A DNA stretch of 64,000 bases from an uncultured Chthonomonas sp. GTDB taxonomy: Bacteria; Armatimonadota; Chthonomonadetes; Chthonomonadales; CAJBBX01. The translations under genes were made by a program, and so were the position numbers. A model generated the notes under the pieces. It was not told the origin of the DNA. It did not search any database and worked only from the letters and a program-made list of their open reading frames with translations. The DNA is taken from NCBI GenBank assembly GCA_903951425.1, contig CAJBBX010000130.1:1-64000 (forward strand), written 5' to 3'. Shown here in pieces: positions 1-64,000 of this stretch (position 1 is the stretch's first letter; each line of letters opens with the position of its first letter).

Positions 1-1551
1 AGGCTGCGGCTACGTGTACGAGCAGGGGCCGGGGCGCGGACACTCCAATACCGGCGACGGCGGCACCCATGGCGGCACTGGCGCGCGCAACGGGGAGTGG
101 TGGGCTTACGGCTCCATCACGGCTCCCACCGATCAGGGTAGCGGCGGCGGATCCAACAATGGCGGCCAGTTCAAGGGTAGGGCCGGTGGCGGCATCCTGG
201 CCATCACGGTACTGGGCGCCACGACGGTGAATGGGGTCATCGCAAGCGACGGCGCCCGCGCATGGATGGCCGGCGGCGGCGCGGGCGGCTCCGTCAGATT
301 GGTGACCGGATCGCTGACCGGCTCCGGGGCCATCCGGGCCGACGGCGGCGGAGCCGGCACACAGGACGGCTGGCCCGCCAGCGGCGGAGGTGGTGGCCGG
401 GTGGCTGTGACCTGGGACGCCACTACCTTCACCGGCTCACTCTCGGCCAGGGGCGGGCAAGGCGTGGCCTCCATGGGCGGCCCCGGCACCGTCTATACCA
501 GAGACACCGCTACGCCTCGGGAGACCGTGACATTTGACAACGGTGGCGTGGCAGGGGCCACCCTCCATCAGGCCCTGTCTATTGCCGCCGCCGATTGGTT
601 TGTCTCATCCGGCACGGTGGTGTTCCGCTGTGTGGATGAGCCCTTGGCGACCCGCGACCTGACGGTCCGCGCCGGGGGCGCCGTAACCTGCCCCGGCAAC
701 GACGGCGTTGGTCTGCGAATCAACGTCAGCCGGAACCTGACGGTCGACCTCGGCGGGTCCATCGATGTGACAGGCTGCGGCTACGTGTACGAGCAGGGGC
801 CGGGGCGCGGACACTCCAATACCGGCGACGGCGGCACCTATGGCGGCATGGGCGCGCGCAACGGCTGGTGGTGGGCCTACGGCTCCATCACGGCTCCCAC
901 CGATCAGGGTAGCGGAGGCGGCTCCAACAATGGCGGCCAGTTCAAGGGTAGTGCCGGTGGCGGCATCCTGGACATCACGGTACTGGGCGCCACGACGGTC
1001 AACGGGGTCGTCGCAAGTGATGGCGCAGGCGCCTGGAAGGCCGGCGGCGGCGCGGGCGGCTCCGTCAGATTGGCGACCGGCTCGCTTGCGGGCTCCGGCG
1101 CGATCCGGGCCGACGGCGGCGGAGCCGGCACGCAGGACGGCTGGTCCGCCAGCGGCGGAGGTGGTGGCCGTGTGGCTGTGACCTGCGATACCACGACCTT
1201 CGCAGGCTCACTCTCGGCCAGGGGCGGGCAAGGGGTCACCAACAGCGGGGCCTCGATAGGCGGCCCCGGCACCGTCTACGCCAGAGACACCACTACACCC
1301 CGCGAGACCGTGACATTCGACAACGCCGGCCTGTCTGGCTACACATATCATCAGGCCTTCTCGATGCCCGCAGCCGATCTGATGATGGCGTCAGGCGAGG
1401 TCTACTTCGGCTGCACGGCAGGGCCTCTGGAGGTTCGTGATCTGACTGTGCAGGCCGGCACGATCACCTGCCCCGAGAACGATGGGGCTGGCCTCCGACT
1501 CAACGTGAACCGGAACCTCACCGTGGCGTCCGGCGGCAGCATCAGCGTCTC
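1..1551 (+). repeat. Direct tandem repeat, period about 771 bp (two near-identical copies plus a diverged third)
   Basis: The first bases of the window recur at 772 (aggctgcggctacgtgtacg). Long stretches of 1-771 and 772-1551 match nearly base for base, with small indels in the second copy around 1240-1255. A third, more diverged unit follows from about 1552 to 2060. The period is a multiple of three, so the repeat keeps the frame. Confidence 0.85.
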
Positions 1552-3277
1552 CGGCCGCGGGTCCCCGAACTGCAGCGGCCCGGGCGGCGGTCACTATAAC
1601 ACCGGCGACGGCGGAAGCTATGGGGGACAGGGAGGAAAGAACTGGCTGGCGCCCTACGGCTCGGTCCAGTACCCGGATAGCTACGGTAGCGGCGGCGGGA
1701 ACTCCAACGGCAACCAGTATACCGGCGGCCCGGGTGGGGGCCTCCTGAGGCTAACCGTCAACGCCGACCTCGTCGTTGACGGCTCCATCTCGGCCGATGG
1801 ATATGGCGCATGGCAGGGCGGCGGCGGCTCCGGCGGCGCCTTGCGAATCGCGTGCGGAACGATATCCGGCACAGGTGTCATCAGCGCCATCGGCGGCTCG
1901 CCGAGCAGCGCCGACTTCAACGTGGGCGGCGGCGGCGGCGGACGCATCGCCATTCGACGAACGGCGGGAGGGACGTTCGGCAGCGGCCTGGTCACCGTGG
2001 CAGGCGGCTCCGGCGCCCACGGCGGCCCTGCAGGCGGCGCCGGCACCATCTACTGGGGAGATACCTACTCCCAGGCCGACCTGCTCCTGGTCCAGTCCGA
2101 CGCCACGTTCGTCTGGAACGCCGACGGAACGGGCACGGCGTCAGTGACCCTCGGCAACGCGGGCCTGGCAGCGGTGACAGATACCAGGGTAGGCGCCTAC
2201 TCCGGCGTGCCCGGTGCGGTCGGTACCGTGGCGCTGGGTTCTACCACTGTGCCCTCGCTGCAGCCCAACGAGTCGGTTCGGGTCTCAGTGCCGGTCATGG
2301 CCGGTGTCAAGGTCACCAGCCTCTATCTGGTGGCCGACCCCGACAACACCATTGCCGAGGGCTCCGAGACCAACAACACGGTGATCCTCACCGTGGGGCG
2401 CACCGAGACGTCGGTATACGTGCCGGACCGGTCGGGCATCATCACGACCACGGTGGCGCTCAAGGGCTACCTCAAGCGGCTCACGGACAACGCATGGCTC
2501 TCCGGCAAGACGCTCACGTTCAAGGTTGCCGGGACAGCCGTGGGGACAGCCGTTACCGACGCCGGCGGCCAGGCGGTACTCATGTGGACCATCGACGCCG
2601 GAGCCGCATCGCGTGCGCTCCGGTCTGAGTTCGCGGGCGACACGACGTACAACCCGTCGGCGGGCAACGCAACGCTGACCGCGCAGACCGTGGCGACCAA
2701 GGTCTACGTGGTCGATCGGACCGCGAAGATCAAGTCCTACGTCGTCCTCAAGGCCTACCTCTACCTGCTGAACAACACCATCGTCGCCGCCAAGCCCATG
2801 ACCATGAAGCTGGACGGCACGGAGCTGGGCGCCTCGGACACCAACCCATCCGGCTACATCCAGTTCGGCTACACGGTGCCGGAAGGCGCGGGCGCGGGCG
2901 TTCGCACGATCCGCGCCGAGTTCGCCGGCGACGCGGGATACAACGCATCGGCCAACAACGGCAAGCTCACCGTGACGAAGGCCAACCTCTACCTCTGGCC
3001 CTATGTCCGGTCCAGTAAACGGGGCGCCAACCTTCCGCTGAAGGCCTATGTACGCAGCCTGCCGGATTACGTGATCCAGCCCGGCAAGGTCATCGCCTTC
3101 AGCGTCAACGGCACCGCGGTCGAAACCGGCGTCGTGGCGGCTGACGGCTGGGCCACCGTCACCTGGGCGATCCCGGCTGGCGAGGCCACAGGATCACACA
3201 CGGCCACGGCGGCCTTCGCGGGAGATGACTGGTACCTGCCCGCATCGGCCAACGCCACGTTCAACGTGGTGCCGTAG
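2..3277 (+). CDS. Glycine-rich repeat surface protein with CARDB and Ig-like modules (5' partial)
   Basis: The frame is open at the left edge and begins inside a repeat, so the N-terminus lies outside the window. About 690 residues form three successive glycine-rich units of roughly 257-260 residues, each carrying runs such as SGGGGGRVAV, ITVLGATTVNGV and RNLTV..GGSI. This looks like a repetitive beta-solenoid. Residues about 690-800 resemble a CARDB adhesion domain (EGSETNNTVILTV). Three Ig-like repeats follow, each ending in an FAGD..Y motif, and the protein finishes with ATFNVVP. There is no sortase motif or PEP-CTERM tail. Role inferred: a secreted or surface structural or adhesive protein. 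The C-terminal module recurs in the opposed gene at 7130-10246 and begins again at the right window edge. No enzymatic residues are evident. The reading frame is certain; the function is not. Confidence 0.85.
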   Translation, partial: GCGYVYEQGPGRGHSNTGDGGTHGGTGARNGEWWAYGSITAPTDQGSGGGSNNGGQFKGRAGGGILAITVLGATTVNGVIASDGARAWMAGGGAGGSVRLVTGSLTGSGAIRADGGGAGTQDGWPASGGGGGRVAVTWDATTFTGSLSARGGQGVASMGGPGTVYTRDTATPRETVTFDNGGVAGATLHQALSIAAADWFVSSGTVVFRCVDEPLATRDLTVRAGGAVTCPGNDGVGLRINVSRNLTVDLGGSIDVTGCGYVYEQGPGRGHSNTGDGGTYGGMGARNGWWWAYGSITAPTDQGSGGGSNNGGQFKGSAGGGILDITVLGATTVNGVVASDGAGAWKAGGGAGGSVRLATGSLAGSGAIRADGGGAGTQDGWSASGGGGGRVAVTCDTTTFAGSLSARGGQGVTNSGASIGGPGTVYARDTTTPRETVTFDNAGLSGYTYHQAFSMPAADLMMASGEVYFGCTAGPLEVRDLTVQAGTITCPENDGAGLRLNVNRNLTVASGGSISVSGRGSPNCSGPGGGHYNTGDGGSYGGQGGKNWLAPYGSVQYPDSYGSGGGNSNGNQYTGGPGGGLLRLTVNADLVVDGSISADGYGAWQGGGGSGGALRIACGTISGTGVISAIGGSPSSADFNVGGGGGGRIAIRRTAGGTFGSGLVTVAGGSGAHGGPAGGAGTIYWGDTYSQADLLLVQSDATFVWNADGTGTASVTLGNAGLAAVTDTRVGAYSGVPGAVGTVALGSTTVPSLQPNESVRVSVPVMAGVKVTSLYLVADPDNTIAEGSETNNTVILTVGRTETSVYVPDRSGIITTTVALKGYLKRLTDNAWLSGKTLTFKVAGTAVGTAVTDAGGQAVLMWTIDAGAASRALRSEFAGDTTYNPSAGNATLTAQTVATKVYVVDRTAKIKSYVVLKAYLYLLNNTIVAAKPMTMKLDGTELGASDTNPSGYIQFGYTVPEGAGAGVRTIRAEFAGDAGYNASANNGKLTVTKANLYLWPYVRSSKRGANLPLKAYVRSLPDYVIQPGKVIAFSVNGTAVETGVVAADGWATVTWAIPAGEATGSHTATAAFAGDDWYLPASANATFNVVP

Positions 3278-3288
3278 AACAAGCCGCG

Positions 3289-3323
3289 TCGGCCCTCTGC
3301 CGGCACACTCGGCAGAGGGCCGA
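3289..3323. terminator. Perfect 14-bp inverted repeat downstream of the glycine-rich gene
   Basis: tcggccctctgccg pairs perfectly with cggcagagggccga across a 7-base loop, starting 12 bp after the stop codon at 3277. No T-run follows. It is a strong hairpin terminator or mRNA 3'-end stabiliser rather than a canonical intrinsic terminator. Confidence 0.6.
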
Positions 3324-3516
3324 TGCGTTCAACACTGGACTTCAGATGCGCCGGTGGACCTTGACAGAGGCCGGCTGGACCGGGCCTGGCGGGCGCTTCG
3401 TCATGTTGGAGAAGCGCCGGTAATCCATCGGGGTGCCAGTGTTCACAGGACGAGGGCCCCTCAATCTCTGTCGCGACGGCCGGCGCCTTGCCCTGGTCGA
3501 TAGGAGCGCTTACCCC

Positions 3517-5160
3517 TTGGGTACCCGATGGCTTGTGCTTCGCGCGGTCCTGACGCTGGCATCGCCGCTCCTTGCGGGACCTGCGACCGGCCAGCCGCCT
3601 CCTGCCGGCTTCCATGCGTACCTGATGGACGACGCCTTCGCCAGCATCCACGCGTCGCCACGGACCGTCGCCGTGCGCTTGCAGGTGACCGCGCTTGCAG
3701 GTCGCCCTCTGTCGGTCACCGTGCCATGGGTCTTGCGCAGGCTACCTGACGGCAAGGCAGTCGGACAGGGACGCGTGCGACTTCGGGCGCCTGCTCGCGG
3801 CGAGGCTGTGGCCCGACTTCCCTTCCCGAGGCGCGCGGGGTACGGGCTGTTCGAGTACGTCGTGCGCGCCACAGCAGACGGGCCGACGACGAACCTCGAG
3901 CACCGCGTAACGGTCATGCGGGCCCCTCCTCCGGATCGCGATATGGAGAGCCTTGGGCTCAACATCCACGTGGCCAGCGACAATACGGCGCGCCTGCTGC
4001 GCCGGATGGGCATCCGCTGGGCGCGCGTGGATTGGAACTGGGGAGACCGCGAACCCTCGCGCGGCAACATCGCCTGGGACTTCCTCGGCGGCATGGTCGA
4101 CGTCGCGGAGAGACACGGCCTCAAGCTCTTTCCCGTTCTCACCTACGTGCCGGCGTGGGCCAGACAGCCGGACGGCGTCTTCCTTCCCGAGGACCATGCG
4201 AGCTACGTCGGCCGCGTCCTGTCACGCTACCGGGGAAGGATCCAGGCTTTCGACGTGTGGAATGAGCCGGAGGGCGACAGCCCCATGAGTGCCACAAAGA
4301 ACCCGGCCCTGTGGGTGGCGGACCTCAAGGCCGTGCGCCAGGCCGCACTCACGGCCGACCCAAACTGCAAGATGGTCGGCATCGCCCTGTCGGGGAACCC
4401 GGGGGACCCGGGAAGCTGGAACCTGCCGCTCCTCGAGCCGCCCCACTCCATCGGCCAGTACCTGGATGCCTATGACTGGCACAGCTACCCCGCGCCGCGC
4501 AACCGAAGACCGGAGGGCACGGAGCGAGCCAGTAGCGTGGACGGCCTGAAGGAGTGGGCGCCCCGCGTGCGCGCGCTTGTGGCAGGACGGGGAGTCTGGA
4601 TCACCGAGCACGGCTACACCACATGCGACCCCCACGATCCGCGCGTCGTGGAACTGGCCAGATCGTGGCCGGCCGGCGCGCCGTTCGATGTCACCGAGAA
4701 GCAGCAGGGCGACTACCTGGTGCGCCAGACGCTGCTCGAGCTGGCTCACGGCATCGACCGAGTCTTCCTCTACCAGCTTGGGCCAGATGGCCCCGGCGGC
4801 TCCACTGAGGACCAGTTCGGCATCACCCGCGCGCGGCCCGGCGCGAGCGCCGGGCCGGACCTATCGGCCAAGGTCGCATACCCGCGACTCGCCGCGATGG
4901 TCCAGGAGATCGCGGGGACGCACGCCGTGCGGGTGGAAATCCCCTCGCCCACCGTTCGCGTGGTCCGGTTCCGCCGCGGCGGCACCGACGTGGTGGCCGT
5001 CTGGACTGTGGAGGGGGCGGCCGATCTGCGGTTCCGGATGACGAGCGGCTACCTCAGCGATCCGTTCGGCAACCGGGCGGCTCGGCAGGGAAGGTTCGCT
5101 GTCCGCGCCACCGAGTCGCCGGTCTACCTCGTGGGATCGAGTGTCTCGCTGACGGACTAA
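3517..5160 (+). CDS. Secreted clan GH-A (GH39/GH5-like) glycoside hydrolase
   Basis: The protein is about 547 aa. I prefer the TTG at 3517: an AGGAG element lies at 3503-3507 and the start gives a clean signal peptide (LGTRWLVLRAVLTLASPLLAG). The longer GTG start at 3433 has no such support. An N-terminal beta-sandwich of about 110 residues precedes a TIM barrel. FDVWNEPEG carries the likely acid/base Glu (about residue 250) and VWITEHGYTT the likely nucleophile Glu (about residue 364), the two-glutamate arrangement of clan GH-A retaining enzymes. MGIRWARVDWNWGDREPSRG is typical of GH39 or GH5-like barrels. A short C-terminal beta-domain follows. Substrate unknown; exported glycan hydrolysis is inferred. 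It lies 155 bp before the acetaldehyde dehydrogenase. Confidence 0.8.
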   Translation: MGTRWLVLRAVLTLASPLLAGPATGQPPPAGFHAYLMDDAFASIHASPRTVAVRLQVTALAGRPLSVTVPWVLRRLPDGKAVGQGRVRLRAPARGEAVARLPFPRRAGYGLFEYVVRATADGPTTNLEHRVTVMRAPPPDRDMESLGLNIHVASDNTARLLRRMGIRWARVDWNWGDREPSRGNIAWDFLGGMVDVAERHGLKLFPVLTYVPAWARQPDGVFLPEDHASYVGRVLSRYRGRIQAFDVWNEPEGDSPMSATKNPALWVADLKAVRQAALTADPNCKMVGIALSGNPGDPGSWNLPLLEPPHSIGQYLDAYDWHSYPAPRNRRPEGTERASSVDGLKEWAPRVRALVAGRGVWITEHGYTTCDPHDPRVVELARSWPAGAPFDVTEKQQGDYLVRQTLLELAHGIDRVFLYQLGPDGPGGSTEDQFGITRARPGASAGPDLSAKVAYPRLAAMVQEIAGTHAVRVEIPSPTVRVVRFRRGGTDVVAVWTVEGAADLRFRMTSGYLSDPFGNRAARQGRFAVRATESPVYLVGSSVSLTD

Positions 5161-5315
5161 CGGGGAAGCGTCGGGCCGGCGCGGCGAACGGCTCGCCGGG
5201 GATGCCGTACACATCGGCCGTCGGCTATCATTGCTACGGCAATCTGACGACGGCGTGCGGATCGTCTCCGCCGCGCCGAATCCACCACCCGTTAACAGGA
5301 GCGCAGCGCTACCCC

Positions 5316-6749
5316 ATGGATCCCGCAGTACAAGCACGGGCCGACGGCATCATGTCGGCCGCCACGATGGCCGCGGCCGTCTTCTCGCAGTACGACCAGC
5401 AGCAGGTCGACCGAATCGTCGAGGCCGTCTTCCGAGCCGCGTTCGCGAACCGCGTCAAGCTGGCCCGGATGGCCCACGAGGAGACCGGGCTAGGAGTCTG
5501 GCAAGATAAGGTGATCAAGAACGTGATCGCCTCCCAACTGGTCTACGAGAGCATTCGCGGCGTGCCGACCGTCGGGGTCATCTCACACGACGAGGCGTCC
5601 GGCATTTCGGAGATCGCCGAGCCGCTGGGGCCGGTCTTCGCCGTCACGCCGATCACGAACCCTACCTCGACGGCCATCTTCAAGATCCTCATCGCCTTGA
5701 AGACCCGCAACCCGATCATTATCAGTCCGCACCGTCGAAGCCAGAGGTCGGTGGCCGAGACGGCGCGGATCTGCACCGAGGCGGCGCTGGCGGCCGATGC
5801 CCCTGAGGACTGCATCCAGATGGCAACGGACGGGTCGCGTGAGCTCACCCAGTGCCTCATGTCCCACCATGGCATGGCCCTGATCCTCGCGACTGGGGGC
5901 ACCGGCCTGGTCACCGCCGCCTACAGCTCCGGTACGCCGGCCATCGGGGTGGGGCCGGGAAACGTACCTGTCCTCATCGACCCGAGCGCCAACCTGGCCT
6001 ACGCCGTCTCCTCGATCCTCGCGTCCAAGACCTTCGACAACGGCACCGTCTGCGCCAGCGAGCAGGCCATCGTTGTGGAGCAGTCCATCGCCGGGGCCGT
6101 GCGGGCGGAGATGCAGCGTCAGGGCTTCTTCTTCCTCGACTGCGACCAGAAAGCGAAGGTCGAGGGGGTGGCCATCGACCCCAAGTCGGGCGCCATGTCG
6201 CCGGAGATTGTAGGCCAGTCGGTAGAGAGCGTCTGCCGATTGGCGGGCATCACGGTTCCGCAGGGCACACGCGTCCTGGTGGCCGACCTCGCCGCAGTGG
6301 GGCCCGAGGAGCCGCTCTCCGGCGAAGTGCTGGCGCCGATCATCGCCTTCTACGTGGGCGCCGACGCCAACACGACGGCCAAGCTCTGCGTGGACCTGAA
6401 CTATCGCGGAGGCATGGGGCACACCGCCTCGATCTACGCCAACGACGAGCAGCGCATCGCCGAGTTCTCGGGCCTGATGAACGCGGGCCGCGTGGTGGTC
6501 AACACGCCTTCGACGCAGGGCGCGGTGGGCTCGCTGCTCAACACACTGGCGCCCTCCTTCACGCTGGGCTGCGGCAGCGGAGGCAAGAACATCACTACGG
6601 AGAACGTGACGGCCCGCCACCTGCTAAACATTAAGCGCGTCTGCCGCAAGCGCCCCAACGAGAAATGGCACAGCTTCGACACGAGCCGGTATCTGGATCC
6701 CGCCGAGACCGTCGACGGCCTTCTGGCCGACTACCACAGCGACCACTGA
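5316..6749 (+). CDS. CoA-acylating acetaldehyde dehydrogenase (AdhE N-terminal-domain type)
   Basis: The protein is 477 aa from ATG 5316, preceded by AGGAG at 5297-5301. The longer upstream frame from 5202 has no coding character. It follows the aldehyde-dehydrogenase half of AdhE closely: IAEPLGPVFAVTPITNPTST, LKTRNPIIISPH, GVGPGNVPVLID, and the catalytic-Cys motif FDNGTVCASEQ with Cys246, the same number as in E. coli AdhE. The iron alcohol-dehydrogenase half is absent, so this is a stand-alone enzyme converting acetaldehyde or a short aldehyde + CoA + NAD+ to acyl-CoA + NADH. No microcompartment shell genes are seen nearby and no encapsulation peptide is obvious. EutE is functionally similar but less alike in sequence. 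The STAS gene follows after 14 bp, suggesting co-transcription. Confidence 0.9.
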   Translation: MDPAVQARADGIMSAATMAAAVFSQYDQQQVDRIVEAVFRAAFANRVKLARMAHEETGLGVWQDKVIKNVIASQLVYESIRGVPTVGVISHDEASGISEIAEPLGPVFAVTPITNPTSTAIFKILIALKTRNPIIISPHRRSQRSVAETARICTEAALAADAPEDCIQMATDGSRELTQCLMSHHGMALILATGGTGLVTAAYSSGTPAIGVGPGNVPVLIDPSANLAYAVSSILASKTFDNGTVCASEQAIVVEQSIAGAVRAEMQRQGFFFLDCDQKAKVEGVAIDPKSGAMSPEIVGQSVESVCRLAGITVPQGTRVLVADLAAVGPEEPLSGEVLAPIIAFYVGADANTTAKLCVDLNYRGGMGHTASIYANDEQRIAEFSGLMNAGRVVVNTPSTQGAVGSLLNTLAPSFTLGCGSGGKNITTENVTARHLLNIKRVCRKRPNEKWHSFDTSRYLDPAETVDGLLADYHSDH

Positions 6750-6763
6750 GGAGGGGCGCCCAC

Positions 6764-7069
6764 ATGCTTGAACTCACCTACCGCGCCGAGCAGACGCTCC
6801 TGACATGCACGTTCGCCGGCCGGATGGACGGCTCCAACAGCCCGGAGGCCGACGCACTGGTCAAGGCCAAGCTGGCTGAGATCGGTGACGGCGCTACTGT
6901 GGTCTTCGACCTCGGCGGCGTCGGCTACGTCTCGTCGGCCTTCCTGCGAGTGATCATCGGCGCGGCCAAGGCCGTAGACGAGGCGAAGTTCAGCGTGGTG
7001 AACTGCCAACCGTTTATCAAGCGCCTCTTCGTCGACGCCGGGCTAGATCGGCTCTTCAGCGTCAGCTAG
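6764..7069 (+). CDS. STAS-domain protein (anti-sigma-factor antagonist-like)
   Basis: The protein is 101 aa from ATG 6764 with GAGGAGGGG just upstream, 14 bp after the aldehyde dehydrogenase stop. It is a single STAS domain: ATVVFDLGGVGYVSSAFLRV corresponds to the strand and helix start that carries the phosphorylated Ser in SpoIIAA and RsbV proteins (here Ser57 or Ser58). PFIKRLFVDAGLDRLFSV is the usual C-terminal helix and strand. Expected role: binding an anti-sigma or switch kinase in a partner-switching pathway. No kinase or phosphatase partner is seen nearby. Its placement behind a metabolic enzyme is unusual. Confidence 0.85.
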   Translation: MLELTYRAEQTLLTCTFAGRMDGSNSPEADALVKAKLAEIGDGATVVFDLGGVGYVSSAFLRVIIGAAKAVDEAKFSVVNCQPFIKRLFVDAGLDRLFSVS

Positions 7070-7087
7070 CCGGCTGGCCGGCATCAG

Positions 7088-7113
7088 GGGGCTGTCCGCC
7101 AACCGGCAGCCCC
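7088..7113. terminator. Hairpin between convergent STAS and SBBP genes
   Basis: ggggctg (7088-7094) pairs with cagcccc (7107-7113) across a 12-base loop containing further complementarity (tccg/ccgg). It lies in the 60-bp gap between converging genes. No strong T-run on either side, so it may be a weak bidirectional terminator. Confidence 0.4.
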
Positions 7114-7129
7114 TCGATTTCGGGTGCGT

Positions 7130-7990
7130 CTACGGCACCACGTTGAACGTGGCGCTCGCCGTTGCAGGCGCATACCAGGCGTCGCCGGCGAACTCGGCCG
7201 TACCCGTGTGGGCGCCGGTCGGTTCGCCAGCCGGGATGCTCCACGCGACCGTCGCCCAACCGTCGGCCGCCGCAGTCGCCGAGCCGATCAGGAAGCCATT
7301 CACCTTGAAGGTGATGACCTTTCCGGGCTGGATCACGTAGTCCGGCAGGCTACGGACATAGGCCTTGAGGGGATGGCTGATTCCCCGCTTGCCTGACCGG
7401 ACGTAAGGCCAGATGTAGAGGTCGCCGGCTGTCACCGTCAGCTTTCCGGTGTTCGCCGACGCAAAGTAGCCAGCGTCGCCAGCGAACTCGCCGCTGATGG
7501 TGCGGGAGCCGACGCCTCCGGCCTCGGCGACCGTGTAGCCGAACTGGGCGCAGCCCGAGGTGTTCGTGTTGCCTACTCCGATCACGGTGCCGTCCAGCCT
7601 GACGCTCACGCGCTTCCCGGCAGGCGCCAGGGTGTTGTTCATCAGGAAGAGGTAAGCCTTCAGGACCACATAGGATTTGACCTTGGCGGAACGGTCCACC
7701 ACATAGACCTTGGTACCGGCCATCTGGGCGGTGAGGGTGGCGGCGCCCGAGGAGGCGTCGTAGGAAGCGTCACCCGCGAAGCTCACCTGTATGCTGCGGG
7801 TGGTAGGTCCGCTTTCGATCGCCCAGTCCAGGGCAGCCATGCCGTTGACATCGGTGGTGGCAGCGCCAACCGACACGCCATCGACAGCGAACGCCAATGA
7901 GCGGCCGCTGATCCATCCATTGTCTGTGAGGCGCCACAGGAAGCCCTTGAGCGTGATGGTGTCGGTGATGATGCCGGTGCGGACCGGGGT
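7130..7990 (-). repeat. Inverted copy of the C-terminal Ig-module coding sequence (partner at about 2405-3277)
   Basis: Both genes end with the same 20 bases, ttcaacgtggtgccgtag being the last 18. Upstream they share blocks encoding KVYVVDR.AK.KSYVVLKAYL and VRSLPDYVIQPGKVI. The copies are in opposite orientation about 4 kb apart, so they form a long imperfect inverted repeat. Confidence 0.7.
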
Positions 7991-10246
7991 CATGGCGCCG
8001 GACTTGCCGAGATTTACGAAGCCGGCGCACCATCCATCCACGACTGCAAATGCAGTTCTGATGGGATGCAGCAGAGGGAAGATGGGTGAGTTGGTTTCGC
8101 CAATTGCGACGACGCTGTGTAGTCCCGTTGAGGCCCCGGCCCGACAGATGTCGTTGCCCGGTCCGCCAAGAAAACTGGCATAAACGAGCGTTTGGAGGGT
8201 ATTGTCCAGGACAACCACAAATGCATCCCGATCTCCGCCGAAAAGGGGTTGAGCCGCGTCCGACGTCACGGGAAAGTCCGTGCCGAAGGTCGTACCTACG
8301 ATGCACGGCCTGCCGCCCAGTAGGACGATGGACGTGCCTTCGTCCGTCCATTTGCCTCCGATGCATGTTGAGCGCAGCAAGGAGGCACCGGTAGGGCTCA
8401 TGACTGCCACGAACGCCTCAAACCCCTCGATCAGATTGTCATATGCCCCCGGCGTGATTGGGAAACCGATCCTCGCATTGCCCGTAACGTATGCCTGGCC
8501 TGCCGGGTCGACGGCGATATCAAGACCGAGGCCGGGGCCCAGGTAGGTGCTGTACTCCAACGAGGCTCCATCTGCACTTAGTTTGGCTACGTAGCAATCC
8601 GACTCGCTGTTCAGTGTGGTATCAAACGCGACAGCAGTCGTCGGGAAGTAGGTGGACGCCGTACTACCGGTAACATAGGCACATCCATCTCGGACCACGA
8701 TCGACCACACAGCATCCTGCCCCTCGCCGCCCAGATAGGTGCTGTAGACAAAGCGCGACCCGTCCGGGGATATCTTGGTGACGAAGCCATCGTACACGCC
8801 ACCGAGGGTAGTCTGGAACGCACCCGGTGTGATAGTACATCCGTACGTACCCCCCGTCCCTACTGCGTACGCCGCACCTGCCGGATCCACGGCCAGGCCC
8901 TTCACGTTGTCGCCGCCGTGGTAGGTGCCGTACACCAGCGAAGACCCGTCTGACGAAAGCTTGGCCACGAATGCGTTGCTCCAACCAGGATACGGATCGG
9001 TGAACTGAGCGCTGCCGGGGGTCACCGGGAAGCCATACTCAACCCTGCCGCCAACATAGGCACAACCGGCCGAGTCCGTAGCGACCGCGTGTACCTGGAC
9101 CCCAGTGCCCGATACGTATGTGCTGTACTGCATCGTCCGCCCCTCGGAGCTCAGACGGGTCACGAAGCCGTCAGACCGTCCGCCGCCGCTGTACGTAGTT
9201 GACCAGGAACCGGGTGTGACCGGGAAGTCGGCGCTTATCGTGTATCCAGCGACATAGATTCGGCCCACCCCATCGGACGCCACCGCCCTGGCACGATCGT
9301 CAGAGCTGCCGCCTACATAGGTGGAGAAGCTCAGTGACGGGTCGATGACCAGCCGTCTGGAGGTGTCGTACCGGGCGACGGTGAGGGCGACTGCCCGCGT
9401 CGGCGGCGTTGCGTGCGAACGCGACGAGGTGAGGGGACGGGATGGCGACAGGTGGTAGGCGCAGGCGACCTCGACGCGCTTGGCGCCAACATACTGGTAG
9501 GCGTAGGGCCGCTTCCAGCGGATACCGCCCACGGGCGTGTCGGCGACGAGGTCGCCGTTCGGTGCCACGGCCAGGCTTGTCGCGCCCTCGAAGGCCAGCT
9601 TCAGACGGCGAGGGTCTCCGCCGGGCTTGACGACGAAGTCGTACTCCAGCCCGCCCTCGCCGCCGTAGTAGACCAGATCGGTCCTGGGGTAGATGCCGGC
9701 GTAGCGGACCTTGCGGTACGTGGCGATGTTGGTGCGCCACTTCTTTGGGTCCTCGCCCTGGATGTAGTTCGTAATGCCGGGGAGCCTCTCGATGCCGGAC
9801 ACCTGAGCGCTGGGGTCTGCGCCCACCAGCTTCATGCGGAGAACGGAACGGCAAGTGGGAGGCCGAGACTCGGCAGCAGAAAGCGGGCTGGAGTACGGCG
9901 CCGATGAGGCCCGATCGCCCATGTCACCGGTAGCCTGGCATTTCCCTGTCCGCTCCCGGATCTCCCCTTGCCCCTTCTGCCTTGCCTCTCGTCCTCGCAG
10001 CACCATCACTGCCTCGCGGCCGGTCAGGAAAAGGGTGTAGCCGGCTCCCCGAGCGAGGAACTGCACACGGGCGTCGGCCTGGCCCTTGTTCGCCTCGAAC
10101 TGCAGTGGCATCAGGGCCGTCCGAACGCCGTAAGCGGCAGGCGGAGCGGCCCGCACGAACGTGGGCAGATAGAGAGCCACCAGTGTGGCCGCCAGCCGTG
10201 CGGCAGACTTACCCTTGCGTGCGTGCCGGAGCAATCGATGCACCAT
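7130..10246 (-). CDS. Exported SBBP-repeat propeller protein with DUF7948 and C-terminal Ig-like modules
   Basis: The protein is 1038 aa from ATG 10246, with GGGAGG upstream. The N-terminus has a basic region and hydrophobic stretch (RLAATLVALYLPTFVRA) consistent with a signal peptide. Residues about 45-310 match the DUF7948 type (FEANKGQADARVQFLARG; GIYPRTDLVYYGGEGGLEYD). Residues about 315-740 are SBBP beta-propeller repeats with recurrent YSTYLGG.G.D and FPVTPGS/A motifs. The last roughly 290 residues are three Ig-like modules nearly matching those at the end of the gene at 2-3277, closing with PATASATFNVVP. No catalytic motif. A cell-surface binding or adhesive role is inferred. Transcribed toward the STAS gene. 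Confidence 0.88.
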   Translation of the reverse strand: MVHRLLRHARKGKSAARLAATLVALYLPTFVRAAPPAAYGVRTALMPLQFEANKGQADARVQFLARGAGYTLFLTGREAVMVLRGREARQKGQGEIRERTGKCQATGDMGDRASSAPYSSPLSAAESRPPTCRSVLRMKLVGADPSAQVSGIERLPGITNYIQGEDPKKWRTNIATYRKVRYAGIYPRTDLVYYGGEGGLEYDFVVKPGGDPRRLKLAFEGATSLAVAPNGDLVADTPVGGIRWKRPYAYQYVGAKRVEVACAYHLSPSRPLTSSRSHATPPTRAVALTVARYDTSRRLVIDPSLSFSTYVGGSSDDRARAVASDGVGRIYVAGYTISADFPVTPGSWSTTYSGGGRSDGFVTRLSSEGRTMQYSTYVSGTGVQVHAVATDSAGCAYVGGRVEYGFPVTPGSAQFTDPYPGWSNAFVAKLSSDGSSLVYGTYHGGDNVKGLAVDPAGAAYAVGTGGTYGCTITPGAFQTTLGGVYDGFVTKISPDGSRFVYSTYLGGEGQDAVWSIVVRDGCAYVTGSTASTYFPTTAVAFDTTLNSESDCYVAKLSADGASLEYSTYLGPGLGLDIAVDPAGQAYVTGNARIGFPITPGAYDNLIEGFEAFVAVMSPTGASLLRSTCIGGKWTDEGTSIVLLGGRPCIVGTTFGTDFPVTSDAAQPLFGGDRDAFVVVLDNTLQTLVYASFLGGPGNDICRAGASTGLHSVVAIGETNSPIFPLLHPIRTAFAVVDGWCAGFVNLGKSGAMTPVRTGIITDTITLKGFLWRLTDNGWISGRSLAFAVDGVSVGAATTDVNGMAALDWAIESGPTTRSIQVSFAGDASYDASSGAATLTAQMAGTKVYVVDRSAKVKSYVVLKAYLFLMNNTLAPAGKRVSVRLDGTVIGVGNTNTSGCAQFGYTVAEAGGVGSRTISGEFAGDAGYFASANTGKLTVTAGDLYIWPYVRSGKRGISHPLKAYVRSLPDYVIQPGKVITFKVNGFLIGSATAAADGWATVAWSIPAGEPTGAHTGTAEFAGDAWYAPATASATFNVVP

Positions 10247-10774
10247 AGCGCGTGCCTCCCCTGTCTGTGGAGCCCGCGCATACTACTGCGCAGCGCACCA
10301 TACGAAGACGATCTGGCGAGTGCTGTCAGCTTACCGCGCAGACGGCATCCGGCACCCTCACGCGGGCGCGTCAGGGCATGCCGATTGCGCGCTACCCGGA
10401 CCTAAGCCTCCAGAGGGTGGCGCCACATGCGGCGACGCTGCACCTGCCGGCCGGGACTGCTAGGCTCAGGCGTCGAATCGCTGGGCACAGACGTCCTAGT
10501 CTCGCAGTCTGACCGACCGCCGTTCGGCCTGGCACCAACGGGGCGAATTGACCGGGCAAGCCGGCCCGGGTGCATCGACCTGACGCCTACACTGCCGGCA
10601 CCTTGGGGGTGAGGACCGGCCGCGTCGTTCAGAATGTCACGCGGATGCGGCCATACAGGAAGCACTCCACGCCTTGCGGCGTTGCGAATGGGTAGGGGCC
10701 GGCGTTTCCGCCGCACCAATACCCGGCGGCCGGCGCCGGAAGCACACGCCGGAGGGGCCGGCCAGGCCTGAGGC
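10247..10774. other. Gene-poor intergenic stretch upstream of the SBBP gene
   Basis: No open frame here has coding character, a ribosome binding site and a plausible start. The segment must contain the SBBP promoter (minus strand), but I see no confident -35/-10 pair. A short minus-strand tail ending at 10629 (...PQGVECFLYGRIRVTF, stop) has an outer-membrane-barrel-like C-terminus and could be the end of a decayed gene; support is weak. Confidence 0.4.
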
Positions 10775-10814
10775 AAAAAAATGGCCCTGGCGGGCGGCAC
10801 ACCGCACCAGGGCC
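10775..10814 (-). terminator. Intrinsic terminator reading on the minus strand, with no matching gene
   Basis: ggccctgg (10783-10790) pairs with ccagggcc (10807-10814), and seven A's at 10775-10781 become a seven-T run on the minus strand. This is a textbook rho-independent terminator for leftward transcription. No convincing minus-strand gene lies to its right, where the next gene, at 11048, is on the plus strand. Confidence 0.75.
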
Positions 10815-10830
10815 GGGCTTGAGAGAGCCA

Positions 10831-10867
10831 GTTGGCGTTAACCGGGGGATTTGGGCCCCCGGCCAAC
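10831..10867. repeat. Strong hairpin (inverted repeat) in the 11-kb intergenic gap
   Basis: gttgg/ccaac flanks a 7-bp core ccggggg/cccccgg around the loop atttggg, with a one-sided bulge (cgttaa). It lies 16 bp to the right of the orphan terminator and about 180 bp before the next plus-strand gene. It could be part of a structured leftward RNA or a leader structure. Confidence 0.5.
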
Positions 10868-11047
10868 ACCTCACATGTTCACGAGTATGATATCCCAACG
10901 GAGCGACTCGATGCAAGCTCCTTGGAGCTGTTGTTTCGCGGGCATCGGCGCCTTGGAGCCTGACCGCCGCAGGCCTGCGGCGCGGCGGCGGGTACGCTTG
11001 TTGCGACGGCGACGGCTCCGACAAGCCGACGCCTGAGGAGGCGGTCT

Positions 11048-14000
11048 ATGGGTCTCGACCAGCGTCGGTTCGTCGGCAGTTCCGCCCTTGCAGCCCTGGT
11101 ATTGCTCGCCGGTAGCTCGGCTACGTGCGGCGCTGCGCCTGTCACATCGGGGCGCGTGGGACCTCGGGCATTCCTCGACAACGGGCTGGTGCGCGCCGTC
11201 TTCGACCTGGGCAACGGCACGTATGACCTGCTGGATGCCTCGGGCACGACGGCCGTCCGCCGGGCTGCCTGCACCGCCAATGCGTGGAGCAGCGCCGCCG
11301 CGGGCCTCCATCGGTCGGCCGCGTGGTTCTCGGTTCACGATGCCTTGGGCGCGGGACGCGCTATGCGCATCACTTGCGCCGGCGCCGGGCAACCCACCAT
11401 AACGCTGGACTTCGCGCTCTACCCGGGGAGCGACCGCGTGGCACTGGCGGCCGCAGTTCGCAATACGGGCAAGAAGGAGCTACGCCTCACGAGCCTCTCG
11501 CCCCTCGGCGGCGCCCGGCTCTTCCCCGCCGACACGCCCACCAATGTCCGCACGCTGGACGGTGCGGGCGGCGCAGGCGACACCCGCGTCATGCAAGGGG
11601 CGGCGCGCCGGTCGCCGAACAACCTGCTGCTCACCTACCGATCCCGCGGCAAGCGGCGCTCCGTCGTCCTGGGCGGCCTCTCGTACCGCGACTTCTGCAA
11701 GACGGCGCAGGTGGGTCTCGAGCGGACGACCACCTCCGGTCGCCTGGGAGCCATCGGCAAGGCTCTGCCCGGCGCAACGCCGGTCGCCTACCTCGACTGC
11801 GGAGGCGATTGTGCGATCAGTCGCGAGGGGGTGCGCCTGAAACCGGTGCAGGGCTCCTCATTCACCTGGGCCGACGCGTCTGCCGACGAGCCCTGGTTCG
11901 GCTCTGTCCTCTTCCATGATCGCGAGGTCGTCCTTGAAGCGTCGGGCCTCCGGCCGGGCAAGGAGACCATCCTCGGGCTCACATGGTGGGACTTCGATGG
12001 CAATGGCCGCCGCCAGGAGGTGAGCGTAGTGGGATCCGACGGCGTCCGCAGGACGCTCATCCCCGAGACGCCGCTGCCCAGTGGGCGCACCGGCCGGCGC
12101 GCCGAGGTCCGAGCCGTCCGCCTCCCCGCCGAGGCGCTGGCAGGCGGGTCATGCCGGATCCTCATCCGCAACGTGGCATCCGTGCCCAACGCCGCCATCG
12201 GCGAGGCGTGGCTATGGGAGGCCCCGTCGGGCTACGCCGTGCCCGCACGGCTGGCCGCTGGAGCGGCTACGTCCGCGCCGACCGCGCCGACGGGCAGGGG
12301 CATCGCGGCAGACCTCTACGCGCAGGACCCGGTGGGCAGGCGGATTCGGCCCGGCGAGACCTATGCGCCGAAGCTCGACCGGTTCTATGTGGGCTTCGGC
12401 ACGCCGAACCCGTTCGTTGCACTGGAGCGCTACGGTCGGGCGGTGAGGTCGGCACAAGGTGCGCGCCCGAACCCCTACACCTTCCCCACCGTCTGCGCAT
12501 GGTACGTGGGGCTCTTCGACTACCCGCAGGCCCAGAACCAGCCGCTCGCCAGCAAGTACAGCGTGGCCTCCGCTCCCGGCCTCGTGGAGGAGGCCGAGAT
12601 CATACGGCGCTCGGGCTTCCTGCGCTACGCGCCGGCGGCGGTTAGGCTCGTGCCCGACACCTACGCCGCGGACAACGAGCAGGGCTGGTGGGACGACGAG
12701 CATTGGCTCCGCTTCGGCCACTACTCCGGCGACTTCCGAACCAGCGCCGCCTACGCGGCGGGCGTCCGCAAGGCGGGGTGCCTGCCCTTCACCTACTTCC
12801 AGCTGGGCCTGGACAGCGCCGACTTCCGCGCTTCACACCCGGACTGGATGCTCGGAGGCGACCCAAGGCGCACGCTGGACTACACCAATCCGGCCGCCCA
12901 GAGCCACATGCGCCGGGTCTACGCCAATCTCCGCGCAGCGGGCGTGGCGGGCATGATGTTCGACTACCCCGATAGCGAGTGGTCCGGCCATCTCGCGCCC
13001 GGCGGCTTCAACGATTCAACAGCAACGGCCGCACAGGCCTACCGCGCCATCTTCGCGCTGGCCAAGGAGGGGCTTGGCCCCAACTCATGGATCCACGAGC
13101 GGGTTCTGGGCGACCCCCTCTCCGACCTGACGACGGGCGTCATCGACTCGCAGCGCGTCTGGGGCGACACTTACGACATCACGGCCCAGATGGTCTCGCG
13201 CGGCGGCCTGCGCTGGTACAAGAACCGCGTGCTCACTGCCTACGATATGGACGCCAAGAACCTGTTGAAGGGCTGGCGCGCCCTGGGTCCGACCGTCTCG
13301 GAGCGCGATGGGCGACGGATGCTGATCACCATGGCCGCTACGGCCGCATCGCGCCTGCTGCTGGCCACCTCCTTCCGCGATATGCCGACGGAGGCACTGC
13401 ACGACATCGAGCGGACCTTCCCGTACCACCGGCAACCCGTGAGCGCCCGGCCCGTCGATATGCTGACCTCGCCGGGCTGGCCACGCATCTATGACCTGGG
13501 CACCGGTCCCGGCCGCCGCGTCGTCACGCTTTACAACAATCGCGAGCCGGCTCGGGCCGACACGCTGACGCTTAGGTTGGCTGGCGACCCGGCGGAGGGC
13601 GCGCTTGGCGTGCCGGGCAAGGCTATGGTGCATGTGTATGACTTCTGGAACGAGCGTTATCTGGGCCTCATGCCCGCATCGAAGCCGCTGACGCAGGCGC
13701 TGCGGCCCGGCGAGGCGCGAGTGCTGGCCATCACGGAGGACGTCGGGCGGCCGCGCATTATCGGCACCAACCGACACATCCTGCAAGGCTTTGTCGATCT
13801 GGCCGGCGAGCCCGTCTGGAACGCCCGCGGCCGCATGCTCTCAGGCGCGGCGCTGACGGTCGCCGGCGAGACCTTCCGCATCCTTATCGCCCGCTCGGGA
13901 CACCCCGCGCTGGGCGCCGCCTGCTCTGCGGGAGGCTGCCGCTTGGTGTCGGTTCCCGGCGCCCAGGGCCTGGCGGCCCTGGAGATCGATGCGCCGGCGG

Positions 14001-60689: not shown

Positions 60690-62588
60690 ATGGCGCAGGC
60701 GAGCCGGGCTGTCAATGGCGCGGCTCAGGCTCAGGTTCTGCACCGATCCGGAAATACCACGTTGACGGAACTACAGAGGCTACTGCAGAGCGTGATGGAC
60801 GCCGCCGACAGCTCAATGGGGAAGATCCCAGTAGCTCAGGGTTCCCCGGTGCTGGTCGGCGCGGCTTCCCAGATCCAGAATGCACAAGATCTGGCGCCGG
60901 AGATCGAACTGGACGCCGAGACAGGCTGGTTCGTGGAGGTTGACGCAAGCAACACCATCACCAAGGCCGGCTGGGACCCCCGGGAGGAGGTGTCCGACGT
61001 CATCATCTGGCGGGCCGACCAGGGGGTCACCGAGTCGGACAACGAGATCACGGAGTGGGACACTTGGTGGCCTGAGGGTGGGAGCGCACTCACCGCAGTA
61101 GCGACCACCGACAACCCGCCGTACACGTCACCGCCCACGTGGGAGGAGCACGTGTTTGGTCATGGGGCCCGGCGCCTGCCGGCCCTGTCAGGCCCGGAGT
61201 CGTTCTTCATGCGGAGTCGCGATCGCCTCTCGGATGAACTGCAGATGGGCGATGGGGCGACCCACACTCTTATCTTCTGGGTACGGTTTGATCCGACGAC
61301 TGTCTCATTGCCGATGGCCATCTGCAGCAACTGGGGCGGCGCGCTTTCAGTGCACAGCTACTGGCTCGGAGTAACCGCTGACGGCAAGCTCACCTACAAA
61401 GTCAGCGCCAATGGGTCCACCGTGGCAGCCACCGTATCGTCTACCAGCGCACTCAACCAGACCGGTTGGTACCGCGTGGCCGGGCGGTACAACGGCGCAA
61501 CCATCGCCGTTGGCCTCTCCTATCTCGACGATGACACTGACATGGACTGGGAGTACGAGACGTACACTGGCGATGTCTATGGAACGGAAGGGACAGGTGC
61601 CGGTCTCTATGTTGGTGGCGGTACCGATGGCGACCGCTTCGCCGGACACATCGTGGCGGGCTACTACTTCAGGTCGGGGCTCGATGACAGCGACGTTGAC
61701 CTGCTCGCTGGTGAGGGCGTCGAGGAGCCGATCCCATACCTCGACATCTTGACGAACCCTCTCTACGAAGGGCCCATCCGCGACGATCTGGTCAGTTGCT
61801 GGCCCCTGGACGAGCCGTCCGGCGGCTACGCCTACGACAAGTGCGGTGTCAACAACCTCCATTGGGGCTTCTGGTGGCAAGGCGCCGCTCCGGGGCCCGG
61901 AGCACCGGACTTCCCCGGTGTCAGGTTGCGCCGGACCGGCGGCCAGAGCCCCACGGATATGCAGTACTTCGTGTGTGACGACCTCGGCGCGGCACTCAGC
62001 GACTCGACCGACCCGCAGAGCCCCAACTACCCGCATCGCCGGATGACCCTGATTGCCGTGGTCCAGCCGGAGACGTACCTGCAGGCATTGGAGGGGTTGG
62101 TCGGGCTGGGGAATAGCTCCAGCTCCGGACCCTACCGAATGTGGGAGACCAACGCCGCCTACCACAGGGACAACAGCAATCCCTCGCACGACGCCAGCGC
62201 GTGGCTCTATGCCGACCCGACCCAAGCGCCGGAGGAGAGCACGCAGACCTCCTACGGCGGGCTCGACACGTCAGCCCACGTCCTGTGCACCACCTGGGGG
62301 CCCGCAGGGAACCTGCCGTATGCGCTCACACTCTACGTGGATGATCCGACCACTCCATTTGAGCCGCCGCATGACATGGCAGGCAAGACCGTCAACAATG
62401 TCTACGTAGAGGTCGACCCCATCACGTTCAACCGGTTCAGCTTTGGCGCAGTCAGGCGGGCGGACGGCAGCGTTCTATACCCGTTCGACGGATACATCGG
62501 CATCCTCATCGTGGTACCCAGAGAGGTCACCGACGAGGAGCGCGTCGCCCTGATGCAGTGGGCCAAGCACACCGCAAGGCTGGCATAG
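60690..62588 (+). CDS. LamG/concanavalin A-like lectin-domain protein without signal peptide
   Basis: The protein is 632 aa from ATG 60690, apparently from a leaderless mRNA. Residues about 1-110 are unrecognised and contain a low-complexity QAQVLHRSGNTTLTELQRLL stretch. Two concanavalin-like units follow: about 130-320 (ATHTLIFWVRFDPTTVSLPM; TGWYRVAGRYNGATIAVGLS) and about 390-632 (FNRFSFGAVRRADGSVLYPF; YIGILIVVPREVTDEERVAL). The second pattern is common in phage-tail and secreted LamG proteins. No signal peptide is visible, unlike nearby secreted proteins. Codon use is less GC-biased than the neighbouring glycosidases, and no other phage genes are seen. Could be a transferred structural or adhesion protein. 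Confidence 0.7.
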   Translation: MAQASRAVNGAAQAQVLHRSGNTTLTELQRLLQSVMDAADSSMGKIPVAQGSPVLVGAASQIQNAQDLAPEIELDAETGWFVEVDASNTITKAGWDPREEVSDVIIWRADQGVTESDNEITEWDTWWPEGGSALTAVATTDNPPYTSPPTWEEHVFGHGARRLPALSGPESFFMRSRDRLSDELQMGDGATHTLIFWVRFDPTTVSLPMAICSNWGGALSVHSYWLGVTADGKLTYKVSANGSTVAATVSSTSALNQTGWYRVAGRYNGATIAVGLSYLDDDTDMDWEYETYTGDVYGTEGTGAGLYVGGGTDGDRFAGHIVAGYYFRSGLDDSDVDLLAGEGVEEPIPYLDILTNPLYEGPIRDDLVSCWPLDEPSGGYAYDKCGVNNLHWGFWWQGAAPGPGAPDFPGVRLRRTGGQSPTDMQYFVCDDLGAALSDSTDPQSPNYPHRRMTLIAVVQPETYLQALEGLVGLGNSSSSGPYRMWETNAAYHRDNSNPSHDASAWLYADPTQAPEESTQTSYGGLDTSAHVLCTTWGPAGNLPYALTLYVDDPTTPFEPPHDMAGKTVNNVYVEVDPITFNRFSFGAVRRADGSVLYPFDGYIGILIVVPREVTDEERVALMQWAKHTARLA

Positions 62589-62600
62589 GGCGTTCACGTC

Positions 62601-62626
62601 AGCGCCCGCGCCCCCGCGCGGGCGCT
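62601..62626. terminator. Hairpin between LamG and WD40 genes
   Basis: agcgcccgcg (62601-62610) pairs with cgcgggcgct (62617-62626) over a 6-base loop, 12 bp after the LamG stop and 21 bp before the next ATG. No T-run. It could end transcription, or shape the 5' leader of the next gene. Confidence 0.45.
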
Positions 62627-62647
62627 TCACTACACGGGAGAAAGACA

Positions 62648-64000
62648 ATGGTCTCCAACACTCTCATGCGGCTCCTGCGCCCTCTGGTACTGGCCCTGGT
62701 CGTGGCGGTCGCATCGTCGGCCCTCGCTCAGAGCCGACCGGACATCGTCTGGAAGGTGGCTCTACCAGCACAGCCCACTGCTTACGCGGTGTCGCCTGAC
62801 GGCTCGCACCTCGCTTGCGGCTTCGACAGCAATGCCGTGTCCGTCCATCGAACCGTCGACGGCGGCGTCACGCACACCTTGACTGTGCCCGGGGCATCGA
62901 AGATCTGGGCATTGGCGTTTGTTGGCGGCGGGCAGTTCCTAGCGGTCAGTTGGCAGCGGACCTCAAGCAGTGGCCAGAATTTCGTTGGCTACTTCCGTGT
63001 TTCTGACGGACAGGTCGAGCAGACCTTCCATCAGTTGATTCCCAGTGGCAATGCGCTTGCCCTAGCCTCAAGCCCGGATGGCCGGCGCCTGGCATGGGGC
63101 TCGTCGCCGATCAGACTCGGTGGTGACGCCGGGTGGGACTACCGTTCGATCGGCGTCTACGACACAATGAACGAGGTGATGGATCGGTACTTCGAAGTCC
63201 AACATACTACGGTTTCGATGGCATATTCGAATTCCGGGCAGTTGTTGGCCTCCGGTCACTATAGTGCCATCAACATACTCCGCCTTGCTGACCGCACTGT
63301 GGTACCGATACCGAATGCCGCAGGCTATGATCAGACAAATACGGCTGTGTTGTTCTCTCCAGACGATAGTCTGCTGGCAACTGGTGCAGGCAACTACGCC
63401 AATGTAACGTTCGGAAAGCCCTATGTGCGATTGTGGGGCCTGCAGGACGGCGTCGTAGTCCGGACGTTGGCGGGCAGCACACTGGCGGCGAACAGCCTGG
63501 CGTTCATGGCGGATGGGACCGTGCTCATGGCGGGCGGCGGCAGCTTCACGACAGGTCGTCCAGACCGCACCACACCCACGGGCGGAGTCCTTTTCTGGAG
63601 GGTCTCTGACGGCGAGCTTCTGCGCGTTTGGGAGGACTTGGCCGATGTGAACCACTGCGTGCTCGACGCCAAGTTCTCGCCCGACCAGTCGATGATCAGC
63701 TACGTCACCCGAGGCGAGGCGCCCTCCCTTGTGCTGGCGCGCAACCCCTACGGCCCGACCGCGCCCACGTCCATCGACCTGCCCAACGTCAACGGCAGGA
63801 TCGGCGATAACGTCACGATTACGGCCAACCTCTGGAACTCAGGGCGGCCCGTGGCCGACCGAGCGCTCACGGTGAGCATTGATGGGGTGGCGCTGGGCTC
63901 CGCAACCACCGACGCCGCCGGCCACATCGCCCTGCCCTACGCCATTCCCGAGGGCACGGGCGCCGGAACGCGGGAGATTGCCGCCGAGTTCGCCGGTGAC
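62648..64000 (+). CDS. Exported WD40-like propeller protein with Ig-like module (3' partial)
   Basis: It opens at ATG 62648 with GGGAGA at 62636-62641 and runs in frame to the window end (451 residues seen). Signal peptide: LLRPLVLALVVAVASSALAQ. Residues about 35-380 form WD40-type blades (AYAVSPDGSHLACGFDSNAV; ALASSPDGRRLAWGSS; VLFSPDDSLLATGAGNY; DAKFSPDQSMISYVTRG). From about 385 an Ig-like module starts (VNGRIGDNVTITANLWNSGR) and leads into AIPEGTGAGTREIAAEFAGD, matching the C-terminal modules of the proteins at 2-3277 and 7130-10246. A surface or extracellular role is inferred. Confidence 0.85.
   Translation, partial: MVSNTLMRLLRPLVLALVVAVASSALAQSRPDIVWKVALPAQPTAYAVSPDGSHLACGFDSNAVSVHRTVDGGVTHTLTVPGASKIWALAFVGGGQFLAVSWQRTSSSGQNFVGYFRVSDGQVEQTFHQLIPSGNALALASSPDGRRLAWGSSPIRLGGDAGWDYRSIGVYDTMNEVMDRYFEVQHTTVSMAYSNSGQLLASGHYSAINILRLADRTVVPIPNAAGYDQTNTAVLFSPDDSLLATGAGNYANVTFGKPYVRLWGLQDGVVVRTLAGSTLAANSLAFMADGTVLMAGGGSFTTGRPDRTTPTGGVLFWRVSDGELLRVWEDLADVNHCVLDAKFSPDQSMISYVTRGEAPSLVLARNPYGPTAPTSIDLPNVNGRIGDNVTITANLWNSGRPVADRALTVSIDGVALGSATTDAAGHIALPYAIPEGTGAGTREIAAEFAGD

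Follow-up and report, generated by a model that had tools for sequence, protein, structure and literature searches.

A three-domain Ig-like tail on dozens of otherwise unrelated exported proteins of a freshwater Armatimonadota group may be an undescribed label for cell-surface placement

How large proteins are placed on the surface of diderm bacteria outside the well-studied phyla is mostly unexplained. The Solibacter C-terminal domain TIGR03437 is a lineage-specific domain at the C terminus of many exported proteins. PEP-CTERM and GlyGly-CTERM, according to the available portions of their descriptions, each came to light as a C-terminal homology recurring on unrelated exported proteins, from which phylogenetic profiling led on to the enzyme (PMC1569441, PMC3237569). 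The available text on PEP-CTERM/exosortase describes a homology present many times per genome on diverse exported proteins, near the last residue, and made up of a 24-residue PEP motif, helix and basic end (PMC1569441). For type IX secretion (T9SS), the accessible part of one account describes the C-terminal domain (CTD) of the Porphyromonas RgpB type as a terminal seven-strand Ig-like beta-sandwich, preceded by an Ig domain and carried by many unrelated bodies with signal peptides (PMC4804311), and the accessible part of another connects a T9SS tail with one xylanase and with Bacteroidota/Chlorobiota but makes no link to Armatimonadota (PMC8857248). The tail described here belongs to a kind already known, that of C-terminal homology modules carried by diverse exported proteins; no paper describing this particular A-B-C arrangement was found in the limited literature searched.

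The window, i.e. the whole stretch of DNA analysed, comprises bases 1-64000 of contig C130, which ends at 64206. It belongs to an Armatimonadota metagenome-assembled genome (MAG) of 6.08 Mb in 188 contigs (G000), which was compared with two congeneric genomes (G001 and G002). The features relevant to the tail are as follows.

2..3277, plus strand: P0002, Gly-rich/CARDB exported protein with tail (1091 aa; 5' end beyond the contig start)
2129..2380, plus strand: CARDB domain directly before the P0002 tail (Pfam PF07705, residues 710-793)
2417..2692, plus strand: P0002 tail domain A (A-model 142 bits, residues 806-897)
2693..2986, plus strand: P0002 tail domain B (B-model 164 bits, residues 898-995)
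2987..3274, plus strand: P0002 terminal domain C, flush with the stop codon (C-model 164 bits, residues 996-1091)
7130..10246, minus strand: P0003, DUF7948 and SBBP propeller exported protein with tail (1038 aa)
7133..7420, minus strand: P0003 terminal domain C, flush with the stop codon (C-model 170 bits; predicted-fold pLDDT 97.9)
7421..7717, minus strand: P0003 tail domain B (B-model 144 bits)
7718..7993, minus strand: P0003 tail domain A (A-model 134 bits)
9338..10099, minus strand: DUF7948 domain of P0003 (Pfam PF25778, E=2e-58)
10148..10246, minus strand: signal-peptide-like N terminus of P0003 (heuristic rule)
62558..64000, plus strand: WD40 protein with weakly related Ig domains, truncated by the window edge and then the contig edge
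63800..64000, plus strand: leading Ig-like (Big_3_5-type) domain of the WD40 protein, incomplete at the window end (PF16640 E=2.3e-4 at residues 415-481, under the curated cut-off)

P0002 and P0003 are 65% identical across 285 C-terminal residues (pairwise alignment, E=1e-113), and their bodies are unrelated, with CARDB and Gly-rich repeats in one and DUF7948 plus an SBBP propeller in the other (Pfam). The common tail consists of three Ig-like Big_3_5 domains in the fixed order A-B-C, with C flush with the stop codon, and both proteins score above the curated cut-off of this family (PF16640; P0002 37.0 and P0003 51.2 bits vs 35.5). The three-domain tails start at 2405 and 8000, positions that the original prediction had given as the limits of a module shared by three proteins. 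For P0002 and P0003 that sharing was borne out, including a common stretch (VRSLPDYVIQPGKVI) and the terminal ATFNVVP, which stands at the stop in both. The WD40 protein, which had been counted as ending in the same Ig series, could not be confirmed as a third carrier: the end of the contig truncates it, and those of its Ig domains that can be seen show only a weak relationship (64 bits with the B-model, 37 bits with the A-model; 29% identity over 82 residues). Neither the RSLPDY stretch nor the RSLPDYVIQPGK tail was seen in its visible part, which runs off the contig at 64206. The last 141 bases of C130 (64066-64206) recur without a mismatch at the start of contig C99 and at the end of contig C118, both of which run on into a second, diverged terminal-domain type (IYLWLLEPRSV...YARSLPYYNWKAG...). 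We infer from this identity that the WD40 protein probably ends in a related but diverged terminal Ig domain and not in the P0002/P0003 tail, the contigs being unjoined.

With domain C of P0002 alone as query, a search of the same genome yielded at least 150 matches, with a clear drop after the top 37 (identity at least 52%), and 37 strong copies of domain C (at least 100 bits) were present in the fetched reading frames. All but one of these are followed by 0-1 residues (36/37), the exception being C133:3214-6111 with 38 more. Complete A-B-C tails were found in 30 of the 37, and the others were cut by contig ends, frame-broken or degenerate; tail counts are lower bounds, since contig breaks within Ig tails are frequent in this assembly. 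The pattern is thus real and far larger than the original prediction could see: domain C is not internal as often as it is terminal, nor is the module confined to the genes first noticed, at least 30 proteins carrying a complete tail. As for C-terminal sorting signals in general, the module keeps to the very end of the diverse exported proteins that carry it.

When all Ig domains in these frames were assigned to their best model, C-best domains were terminal in 54 cases and internal in 5 (n=59), and A- or B-best domains terminal in 11 and internal in 209. This assignment leans on models built from the tails, and a tree of 277 Ig domains was therefore made without it. On that tree, which has few columns for its number of rows and from which domains shorter than 79 residues or running off contigs were dropped, the 65 terminal domains account for 9 label changes vs 58.7 when labels were shuffled (0/500 shuffles as low), and 64 of them, along with 12 other domains, are set apart by a branch that has 95% local support. 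Terminal Ig domains hence form a lineage of their own. Although the tail domains of P0002 and P0003 are members of Big_3_5, domain C makes up a distinct subfamily that hardly occurs outside the last position and has its own conserved motif.

The bodies that precede the 30 complete tails are varied, with 10 RCC1 and 5 DUF7948 proteins (SBBP repeats matched in 4 of the latter) and single WD40, BNR, subtilase, M36 fungalysin (with P-domains) and CARDB/Gly-rich bodies. Another 8 of the 30 had no non-Ig Pfam match at 1e-4, and the remaining two are cut by contig ends, one of them (C163) having been left out of the Pfam scan. Several bodies bear extra A-like Ig domains ahead of the tail. A crude signal-peptide rule was passed by 26 of the 28 tail frames whose N terminus could be read vs 79 of 236 other frames of at least 350 residues, not all of which are genes. 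In G006, from one further genus of the family, and in G009 and G011, from another, all six distinct RCC1 proteins with a readable end finish flush in an A-B-C-type tail of another dialect (PYIWVMPRSVPQGG..YAYFRRLADYQKQ..), and one G011 protein (L088) carries the genus-type tail. The arrangement therefore predates the genus, with versions that differ between genera. Matches in more distant genera are plain Ig arrays, often also flush at the stop.

Conservation between paralogues rises toward the end of the tail, with mean pairwise identities of 0.50, 0.62 and 0.69 and 16, 33 and 38 columns at 90% identity or more for domains A, B and C, respectively. The dN/dS ratios calculated from medians decrease in the same order (A about 0.47, B 0.42, C 0.28). 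Within domain C the run AYVRSLPDYVIQPGK is conserved best, and in the predicted model a large part of it falls outside strands; the loop RSLPDYVIQPGK is among the best-kept positions of the domain. Between genomes, reciprocal-best pairs are on average 88% identical in C, 90% in B and 80% in the body, and these means retain 4 non-orthologues among the 44 pairs (body identity 28-30% or plainly another gene; three of them by body identity, at 28, 29 and 30%). A tree of 72 tails from the three congeneric genomes, from which 7 of the 37 strong C copies were omitted (five cut at contig ends; C115:116796, with a frame break between C and its A domain; and C4:2562, where nothing but a DUF7948 fragment precedes C), groups tails by orthologue and not by genome. 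The copies had therefore already become separate genes when the species split, and selection has since kept them alike, a long-term constraint. Recent gene conversion was rejected as the overall cause of their likeness, given this clustering and a median dS over the whole tail that is higher between own-genome paralogues (0.85, with a median dN in C of 0.23) than between reciprocal-best pairs (0.37). A few local exchanges of domain C were detected, as in C39:21077 vs L119 (body 96, A 97, B 99 and C 76% identity).

Two loci are of separate interest here. Tandem RCC1 propeller genes with Ig tails at C39:14656-23547 (G000) show signs of C-domain exchange between neighbours, and the short frame at C4:2562-3434 (G000), in which the DUF7948 fragment leads directly into domain C, is probably a decayed tail protein.

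The P0003 tail was predicted to fold into three beta-sandwiches (mean pLDDT 97.2), with seven strands in domain C alone (pLDDT 97.9). Among the matches listed, the nearest solved folds were Ig domains of macroglobulin, invasin, titin and adhesin-extender type, i.e. generic Ig-like folds; the RgpB CTD was not among the fold matches listed, which excludes nothing, and no solved structure chain was related to the tail by sequence. That the module matches neither T9SS nor PEP-CTERM tails, as originally proposed, was upheld by profile searches of P0002 and P0003, with no T9SS tail profile in Pfam or NCBIfam up to E=1 and no PEP-CTERM match in Pfam; TIGR03437 likewise gave no match in NCBIfam. The likeness to PEP-CTERM lies in the many copies per genome and the position near the last residue of diverse exported proteins. 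The modules differ in kind, since the tail is a folded Ig unit of 290 residues that ends in a predicted beta strand, and not in the PEP motif, hydrophobic helix and basic end of the published description, as far as available (PMC1569441).

PEP-CTERM (PF07589) was detected at E<=0.01 in 199 of 237 genomes of the phylum that are at least 85% complete; one further genome (G003, 78%) lies outside this set and was scored separately. Within the family, it was found in 0/6 Ig-tail-rich genomes (3 genera) and in 6/6 Ig-poor ones (5 genera), with 7 to 15 matches at E<=0.01 in five of the latter and 21 at E<=1 in G003. Exosortase was absent from all three genomes of the genus, which has no PEP-CTERM match at E<=0.01 either, and present in 9/9 other genomes of the family, including the two other Ig-rich genera (48/61 overall). 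Across the phylum set, PEP-CTERM was lacking in 6 of 10 Ig-rich genomes (at least 20 matches) vs 32 of 227 others (Fisher 0.0015), and by genus in 3/5 vs 21/135 (Fisher 0.035), with Ig counts per genome being lower bounds (at most 21 candidates scored in each). Outside the family the exclusion is loose, as Ig-rich G017 has 11 PEP-CTERM matches and G023, G026 and G027 have 2, 1 and 3. The three Ig-rich genera may moreover represent one clade, and the family contrast may thus reflect a single evolutionary event. No tail swap, in which one body would end in PEP-CTERM in one genus and in the Ig tail in another, was found in the family, although such a swap would be the most stringent sign that the two tails are equivalent. 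DUF7948 proteins are absent from its six PEP-CTERM genomes, and the single RCC1 protein among these (G005) ends in neither tail, which suggests that the propeller proteins were gained or lost together.

The A-B-C tail bears the same signature as PEP-CTERM and GlyGly-CTERM, is easily counted, and occurs in a clade with sharp presence/absence contrasts, so that the same profiling can be applied to seek its partner. Searches for exosortase, SprA_N and secretin identified no cognate enzyme or translocon for the tail. Secretins are encoded in all three genomes of the genus, hence outer-membrane export machinery of some kind exists. In locus L194 (G000:C73:20000-39900, about 8715-13494, minus strand), three secretin genes lie in a row beside a TetR-type regulator, and the three-secretin run recurs in G001, G002, G009, G011 and G004. 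This locus is a lead toward possible export machinery and does not match the distribution of the tail, as G004 has no Ig tails.

Taken together, these observations are best accommodated, in our tentative judgement and at slightly less than an even chance, by a C-terminal module for surface placement, read by a shared putative partner through domain C. Tail proteins would leave the cytoplasm via Sec using their N-terminal signal peptide, and domain C, at the very C terminus, would be recognised beyond the inner membrane by a common partner, for which an outer-membrane translocon, a shuttle or a surface receptor are candidates. This partner would export the varied N-terminal bodies or hold them at the cell surface, with domains A and B possibly serving as spacer and presenting domains. 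Such a sorting or anchoring role fits the terminal position, the many kinds of exported body and the absence of PEP-CTERM; from these patterns we infer that a shared partner recognises the tail, where the proteins are located and which step the tail serves. Several results count against it, namely that no partner and no tail swap were found, that exosortase is retained in two Ig-rich genera, that plain Ig arrays elsewhere also end flush at their last Ig strand, that domain C is not more conserved than B between orthologues, and that the PEP-CTERM exclusion is loose outside the family and possibly a single event within it. These same terminal Ig arrays in other genera would be expected if the three domains were a passive stalk, a rigid spacer that lifts propellers and enzymes without binding anything specific, that spread by domain shuffling, and that is terminal because this is where a stalk ends. 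We regard this as a plausible reading, second to surface placement. All three domains are ordinary Big_3_5-type Ig folds, extra A-like domains precede the tail in several bodies, and adhesin-extender, titin, invasin and macroglobulin-type domains were closest in fold among the matches listed. A pure stalk would however need neither a fixed A-B-C order nor a distinct terminal lineage, nor would it place the strongest constraint among paralogues, along with a conserved loop, in the last domain.

The conserved and partly aromatic loop and edge strand of domain C (YIW, RSLPDY), common to enzymes and propellers, could instead indicate a domain that binds one common target, such as the cell's own polysaccharide, an S-layer or a foreign surface glycan, and immobilises proteins after release without routing them. 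We consider this distinctly unlikely: no carbohydrate-binding family matched above its cut-off (the CBM60 match, PF16841, was below its own), and the terminal position would be left unexplained. Even less probable, and to our mind a very long shot, is a divergent T9SS CTD whose secretion system was missed by the models. The published CTD, in the part of the source at hand (PMC4804311), and the predicted domain C are both terminal seven-strand Ig-like sandwiches, a likeness in kind, yet the tail unit differs in its three Ig domains of invariant order, the last of which averages about 69% identity, no T9SS tail model matched at E<=1, and SprA_N was found in 0/61 relatives, a result made uninformative by control genomes that gave no match either. 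Surface placement is thus ranked ahead of the passive stalk, followed by the ligand-binding tail and the hidden T9SS. A broader form of the surface-placement reading, which we think somewhat improbable, is that of an undescribed sorting system of Chthonomonas-like Armatimonadota, with a three-domain Ig-fold C-terminal signal, genus-specific dialects and a putative reader in the outer envelope, used where exosortase/PEP-CTERM was given up.

Some further features of the tail genes were recorded. The stop codon is TAG in 31/36 tail genes, to which no meaning was assigned since TAG is common in this genome (18/21 tail genes vs 51/108 other frames). The Gly-rich body of P0002 (window 2-2130) contains long internal repeats of several hundred residues each (GCGYVYEQGPGRGHSNTGDGG...). 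A GC-rich, terminator-like hairpin directly after the stop is common to the tail genes of C12:22098, C43, C81, C92 and C156.
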